The notes under the pieces are model-generated. The model made no database searches. It was given only the letters and a program-made list of their open reading frames with translations, and was not told the origin of the DNA. Of a stretch of 64,000 nt of DNA, positions 3,701-51,590 are shown piece after piece. This DNA comes from Methanolobus sp. (GTDB lineage Archaea > Halobacteriota > Methanosarcinia > Methanosarcinales > Methanosarcinaceae). The DNA lies in contig NZ_JADQBY010000008.1 in the NCBI RefSeq assembly GCF_016278385.1, forward strand, positions 62,001-126,000. Direction: 5' to 3'. Position 1 is the stretch's first letter. Every line of letters starts with the position of its first letter. The position numbers and the translations under genes are program-made.

Positions 3701-3888
3701 ATCTCCAGTCTTTCCCTAACATGAGAGTTTAGAGAAATGGCTTATGTGCTTCAGAACTCTTTTTCATGTAATGAAGAGTATCTCTAGAAAATCCCATCTT
3801 CTTCTAATCCGAATAAGAAATGCTCAATATCTTCTGTCTTATAATCTGAATCCTACGTCTCGAATTTTAGTGAAATTTCTTATTTAGG

Positions 3889-40424: not shown

Positions 40425-40790
40425 ATCGATATTATTCGCCAGGTTTGTGAGCTGGTCTTCTCACGTAGTCTTAGTGATGATATATGTACTGGTAAATGTT
40501 CTTGGTTCAACCGCAGCGATAACCGCGATTGAGCTTAATCGGGTTTGCTTGGAACATCAAAGATGCACTTAAAATCTGGCTCTGGAAGATATTACTTATT
40601 TTCATAATGGAAGATGGCATGGTGGCAATGGCTATTCTCATATACACGCTTCATTTATAGGGCAAAGTGAATCTTTTCTTCTGATAAAGATTCTACTTGG
40701 CGCCTGGCAGCAGATTGTTCTGATGGGCCTAGATGATCGTCCGCAATCAAGAAAAATCATTGTTCTGATCTGCGGTGAATAAAGAATAGA
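40425..40790 (+). pseudogene. Possible decayed membrane-protein gene
   Basis: The stretch 40358-40833 has no intact gene of convincing size. One frame reads HVVLVMIYVLVNVLGSTAAI then TAIELN up to about 40540. After a one-base shift another reads GFAWNIKDALKIWLWKILLI then FIMEDGMVAMAILIYTLHL to a TAG at 40658-40660. Both are hydrophobic, as expected for one membrane protein split by a frameshift. The remainder (to the TAA near 40785) also stays open in the first frame after a stop. No family is recognised; this may be chance. Confidence 0.25.
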
Positions 40791-50544: not shown

Positions 50545-50670
50545 TTGGATTCTCCAAAGAATGGTGTTTCATAAAAGTTGCTATGTTAATTTATGCTGCC
50601 ATATTAAATTAATACACGTTTATGTTAAATATGCTGAAAATCAACATAATATTTAAGGGGGTAGGTTTAT

Positions 50671-50752
50671 GAGGCAAACACAGGTTTCAGCTATAAACCA
50701 ACCAACACATAGTATTGAAGTTTGCATTGATTAGTTTTCATGTGTTTGTCTC
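50671..50752. other. Inverted repeat that can form a 12-bp stem
   Basis: GAGGCAAACACA (50671-50682) pairs with TGTGTTTGTCTC (50741-50752), 12 bp with one G-U pair, enclosing a smaller GGTTT/AAACC hairpin. A 21-codon frame from ATG 50669 behind AAGGGGG lies inside it. The stretch 50545-50853 has no convincing gene; the repeat may be a leader, a terminator or a small RNA. Confidence 0.35.
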
Positions 50753-50853
50753 GCCTCCAATTTCCTCCATTTGAACTGTATGTTGTATCAATTTTAATGG
50801 TTATTCAAAGACCTGCCAAGAAGAATAATATACTATATTTGCATAGTATTTCC

Positions 50854-50917
50854 TGCGGCGATGATGACAGTTACCCCGACTGAGCAAAGAATGATGATAT
50901 TTCTAACTGATGCCGCA
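50854..50917 (+). ncRNA. C/D box small guide RNA
   Basis: All elements are present in order: C box ATGATGA (50861-50867), a 12-base guide, D' box CTGA (50880-50883), 7-base spacer, C' box ATGATGA (50891-50897), 9-base guide, D box CTGA (50907-50910). TGCGGC (50854-50859) pairs with GCCGCA (50912-50917) as terminal stem. A TATA-like ACTATATT (50832-50839) lies about 20 bases upstream. Archaeal C/D RNAs direct fibrillarin to 2'-O-methylate the target base paired five bases before D or D'. The targets are not identified here. Confidence 0.85.
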
Positions 50918-50996
50918 AATCCAAATAAGGGTAATATAAAAAGATGAAACGTCCCTTTTATGGGGCGTTCATTGTAATACAGGTTTTACTCGATCA

Positions 50997-51446
50997 TTAT
51001 CTATGCTTTTCTTCGATATCTGCTTTAGGTAACGTTATGGTCAGTACACCATCTTCCAGTTTTGCACTTGCTGTGTCTTCCTTTACTGCAGATGGCAGAT
51101 TGAATGCACGTGCAAACCTGTTGTAGGTCCGTTCTCGCATAAGGTATCCTTAATTTTTTTCTTCGGATTCCTTGTGAGTATTGGCACTGATCCATACTTT
51201 GTTATCCCTTATGTCTATATTGACGTCCTTTTTATCAACACCCGGAAGATCTGTTGTGACAACAATATTATCGTCATTATCTTTGATGTCAACAAGAGGG
51301 GATAGTGTATCAATATCCATCATTTCAGGCATCGATTCACGATCTCCGAACAAACTGTTGAGGTGCTCTTGCGTATGTTTCATTTCTTCAAAGGGATCCC
51401 ACCTTGGAGCTGTACTCGGGTTTCATGGCGTTAATCCAAATTTCAT
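50997..51446 (-). pseudogene. hsp20: Hsp20/alpha-crystallin small heat-shock protein, interrupted by two stop codons
   Basis: In one uninterrupted reading frame of 150 codons from ATG 51444-51446 (behind GGTGA), the translation starts MKFGLTP, has TGA (51423-51425, codon 8), continues NPSTAPRWDPFEEMKHTQEH and the alpha-crystallin domain (SPLVDIKDNDDNIVVTTDLPGV), has TAA (51150-51152, codon 99), then GYLMRERTYNRFARAFNLP and the GVLTITLPK C-terminal motif to TAA 50997-50999. TGA sits where family members have Trp. Two nonsense changes with no frameshift. The first piece can restart at codon 22; the last piece has its own ATG and AAGGA. Confidence 0.85.
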
Positions 51447-51590
51447 TTCACCACACTCATGGTTTGTTATAGTTGGAACTATCCCTAATATTGGATACTC
51501 CCACTAAATAATATTATCCATTCAGTTTTATATATCTATATATATATGTGGTGATTCGGAGTGTGGGTGTAAAAAAGATGACAAGCGGAG

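Follow-up and report, generated by a model that had tools for sequence, protein, structure and literature searches.

How should a small heat shock protein gene be read when its frame contains stop codons: as a broken gene, or as one that is decoded in an unusual way? Such a frame lies in the 64,000-nucleotide stretch of Methanolobus DNA analyzed here (the window), which comes from contig C39 of a 2.88-Mb genome in a draft assembly of 52 contigs. The frame is on the minus strand and translates to a 149-residue Hsp20 with two in-frame stops. With the stops masked, it matches Pfam HSP20 (PF00011) over residues 53 to 147 (77.2 bits; E value, 1.1e-21), and its identity is far beyond chance. The nearest named matches are in Methanolobus species. 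Elsewhere in the same genome there is a single HSP20-type match, a divergent one of 29.7 bits to a 197-codon open frame on contig C16.

Three lesions interrupt the frame in the assembly (Table 1). A preliminary description, made from the sequence alone, had pointed out a TGA at codon 8, where homologues have Trp. Translation and the orthologue alignment agree with this: the residue is Trp in all of the aligned Methanolobus orthologues except that of G020, which has Arg. The TAA that it had reported at codon 99 was also confirmed by translation, and the aligned orthologues all have Glu there (24/24). The two codons preceding this TAA have diverged from the orthologues as well. Because the TAA falls inside the α-crystallin domain, that domain is not uninterrupted.

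The third lesion had been overlooked. The preliminary description took the frame to be free of frameshifts, but one base has been lost at the 3' end relative to 24 of 24 orthologues. The intact orthologues run four codons past codon 149 and end in I/V-M-I-E (24 of 24 aligned). Because the one-base deletion shifted the frame, the TAA at 50997 to 50999 is not the natural end. The bases of the C-terminal I-x-I motif are kept, but they lie out of frame directly behind the stop, and so the claim that the frame retains all Hsp20 features does not hold. Frames called frameshift-free need a comparison of their 3' ends with those of relatives. The lesions are of different types: one is a transition, one is a transversion with further substitutions next to it, and one is a deletion. 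They are spread over 430 bp. All three are private to the window lineage; the other Methanolobus orthologues have none of them.

Table 1. Features of the hsp20 locus (positions in the window)
Feature	Position	Strand	Basis or remark
Probable hsp20 pseudogene frame, codons 1 to 149 plus premature TAA	50997..51446	-	Translation; Pfam HSP20; syntenic orthologues
Lesion 1, TGA at codon 8	51423..51425	-	Almost all orthologues have Trp
Lesion 2, TAA at codon 99	51150..51152	-	Every aligned orthologue (24/24) has Glu
Lesion 3, one-base deletion at the boundary of codons 149 and 150, resulting in an immediate TAA	50999..51002	-	24/24 orthologues one base longer
Remnant of the C-terminal I-M-I-E tail (I-x-I motif), now out of frame, with the ancestral stop	50986..51000	-	IMIE and stop in the shifted frame
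Supposed re-initiation signal, TAAGGA ... ATG	51141..51152	-	Incidental, as intact orthologues share the AAGGA/ATG
Retained promoter/leader: AT-rich TATA-like stretch, inverted repeat TGGGAGTATC..GATAGTTCCA, GGTG before ATG	51447..51570	-	Alignment of 15 upstream regions; predicted function

An hsp20 orthologue is present in 26 of the 27 Methanolobus genomes, the window's own included, and a genus-wide search found stops in the window copy only. The gene is open in 25 of the 26 other genomes. In the genomes examined, apgM and cofE flank it (order, cofE-hsp20-apgM). G023 was excluded from the alignments because its contig starts right beside the gene. We searched G002 between apgM and the conserved downstream element and found no hsp20 remnant. 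A tree built from six flanking genes recovered G002 and G004 as sisters (support, 100), with G000 as the sister of that pair (support, 87). Since G004 is intact, the deletion in G002 and the lesions in the window are separate events, and a loss common to the two is ruled out. The independent loss in this sister lineage shows that loss of hsp20 is possible in the clade. In the other family members G078, G079, G094, and G129, there are only weak hsp20 matches. Two further family copies have an in-frame TAG or TGA (G110:C44:3654-4055 and G115:C204:2044-2439); these may be pseudogenes, or they may carry pyrrolysine where the codon is TAG.

We conclude, with a probability of about 0.89, that the canonical small heat shock protein gene of Methanolobus is present at this locus as a young pseudogene. 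A very young pseudogene was among the possibilities raised in the preliminary description; it is well supported, and the third lesion adds to its strength.

The age of the inactivation was approached with a GY-type codon model, in our own implementation, that allowed a separate ω for the window branch. For the whole gene, ω was 0.129 on this branch versus 0.091 elsewhere, a difference that was not significant (2ΔlnL, 0.98). A value of 1 on the window branch was rejected (2ΔlnL, 33.7), and the whole-gene relaxation statistic was 0.98 to 2.9 (2ΔlnL). Because ω on the window branch is 0.13 and not 1, the frame was under selection until recently. The α-crystallin part is unrelaxed on this branch (ω of 0.068 versus 0.078). 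In the first 50 codons, ω was 0.55, the highest of 14 branches, with a 2ΔlnL of 8.2 that is nominal and uncorrected and a region split that was chosen post hoc. The overall pattern is that of a very recent inactivation; the N-terminal signal is suggestive only.

The lesions can also be set against the number expected. A likelihood profile placed the neutral share of the window branch at about 4%, with an upper bound of about 16%, which corresponds to about 13 neutral changes in hsp20 (upper bound, about 34). Approximately 2.9% of neutral changes are nonsense. By arithmetic from the model, the best estimate predicts about 0.4 nonsense changes and the upper bound predicts 1.0, versus 2 observed, and the Poisson probability of two such changes is about 0.05 or 0.26, respectively. 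The two nonsense changes thus exceed the expectation slightly, but not to a notable degree. Three lesions beside few missense changes are somewhat above what purely neutral decay would give, and this, like the unrelaxed α-crystallin domain, counts against the pseudogene.

An alternative is that the organism has an undamaged gene and that a poor consensus at this spot produced all three lesions as artefacts. Sequencing errors had been named as a possible cause of the stops. The draft state of the assembly, the unrelaxed α-crystallin domain, and an intact upstream region with a conserved inverted repeat would all suit this explanation. However, the 53 other genes of the window contain zero internal stops in 16,478 codons, in frames that were picked from the list of open reading frames (ORFs). 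The independent part of this test is the set of syntenic frames from two relatives, which align with the window over their full length. Among about 60 such frames, none had a frameshift comparable to that in hsp20. The apparent stops in these alignments were due to over-extended 5' ends, except in the decayed ORFs at 40486 to 40779 and possibly 3735 to 3845. The flanking genes apgM and cofE are clean, and the differing kinds of lesions over 430 bp do not fit a single error type. Random error is disfavored because a rate giving three lesions in 450 bp would show elsewhere, and poor quality across the assembly is ruled out by the 53 clean genes. We therefore consider artefact an unlikely cause of the stops, and the lesions appear to be biological. 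The first of the decayed ORFs (40486 to 40779, plus strand) shares 55% identity with an ORF of 139 codons in G016, contains a stop and gaps, and is probably another small pseudogene.

A biological interruption could still leave a product if the protein were made in pieces. In this scenario, translation would restart after each stop, and fragments of approximately codons 22 to 98 and 102 to 149 would assemble into a working α-crystallin domain. The AAGGA and ATG noted earlier at the TAA are indeed in the sequence, as TAAGGA and an ATG at codon 102. In alignments with solved small Hsp sequences, TAA-99 lies in a variable stretch right before the conserved "ER" strand, where a cut would probably harm the domain least, and the constraint on the domain is unrelaxed. 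However, the AAGGA..ATG arrangement is common to intact orthologues, for example, those of G004, G016, and G024. Because the intact orthologues have it too, it is a by-product of the conserved Glu-Gly-Tyr-Leu-Met (E-G-Y-L-M) codons and is not specific to the interrupted copy; for this reason, we reject codon 102 as a re-initiation site. The TAA would cut the α-crystallin domain, neither fragment is a complete domain, and the C-terminal I-x-I motif is lost as well. The genus-wide search found the interrupted arrangement in no other Methanolobus genome. We consider it very improbable that fragments of this kind form a split chaperone. The fuller version, a chaperone in two or three pieces whose domain is interrupted in a variable loop and rebuilt from fragments made by re-initiation, with its oligomer-forming tail discarded, is just as doubtful.

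The stops might instead be bypassed, with the TGA at codon 8 read as Trp and the TAA at codon 99 read through. The TGA stands exactly at the Trp position of the orthologues, as this reading would have it, but the change from TGG to TGA is a single transition. Both codons are normal terminators in the window, where TGA ends 22 of the 53 neighboring genes and TAA ends 25 of the 53. Moreover, bypassing the stops would not cure the 3' frameshift. A recoded gene has a frame that is open to its natural end, and here the frameshift lies before that end. In Methanosarcinaceae, the codon known to be recoded is TAG (pyrrolysine) and neither TGA nor TAA. Because of normal terminator use and the frameshift, we reject TGA as a Trp codon and general recoding, and we give stop bypass, which the preliminary description had also entertained, next to no weight.

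The upstream region of the probable pseudogene is kept, which fits a recent loss. Its inverted repeat (51450 to 51570, minus strand) is conserved across the genus and may act as an operator for a stress regulator. Convergent to hsp20, at 50854 to 50917 on the plus strand, there is a C/D box sRNA-like element that is nearly invariant in 14 relatives. It has the boxes ATGATGA, CTGA, ATGATGA, and CTGA within a TGCGGC/GCCGCA stem, and the Rfam C/D families snoR38 (28.7 bits) and sR1 (24.5 bits) match it below the gathering score. Between this element and cofE, a stem-loop is predicted at 50665 to 50770 on the minus strand (-25.5 kcal/mol, without a shuffle control), with sequence similarity in several relatives.

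The intact counterparts of the gene include characterized proteins. Methanolobus psychrophilus has the small Hsps Hsp17.6, Hsp18.9, and Hsp20.2. Of these, Hsp17.6 is encoded by a cold-induced gene and is active in protection assays (PMC7961418). If G026 is M. psychrophilus, its orthologue at C1:2103407-2103856 is probably Hsp17.6 (Mpsy_2176), as it lies where gene number 2176 should be on the map. Hsp17.6 is therefore the likely M. psychrophilus orthologue of the window pseudogene. Judging from the gene numbers, the C16 protein probably groups with the Hsp20.2 type. Hsp17.6 is a canonical Methanolobus small Hsp, and the window gene is of the same kind. The window copy, with its two stops and its frameshift, differs from Hsp17.6, which is intact, inducible by cold, and active. 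MjHSP16.5 of Methanocaldococcus jannaschii (1shs) belongs to the same α-crystallin family and aligns to residues 52 to 144 of the broken frame. It too is intact, whereas the corresponding C-terminal I-M-I-E of the window is out of frame. In MjHSP16.5, the I-x-I motif was shown to be necessary for oligomerization (PMC3638399).

Recent prokaryotic pseudogenes as a general class are syntenic, keep their promoters, have few inactivating changes, and have intact orthologues in relatives. The window locus is similar in all of these respects and differs only in combining three lesions with a core domain that shows little missense decay. We found no account of a pseudogene of this hsp20 in the literature. 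We suggest that hsp20 was under purifying selection for nearly all of the history of the lineage and then became dispensable. It would then have gained a nonsense codon near the start, another in the α-crystallin domain, and the one-base deletion that removed the I-x-I tail. The divergent Hsp20-type protein of C16 and other chaperones would presumably suffice. Most likely, no working chaperone is made from the locus. The case is one of ordinary gene loss and not of a novel mode of protein synthesis. With the gene deleted in G002, freshly broken in the window, and intact in G004, a conserved stress chaperone has been lost repeatedly in one archaeal clade, and this clade could serve to ask under which conditions hsp20 becomes dispensable.
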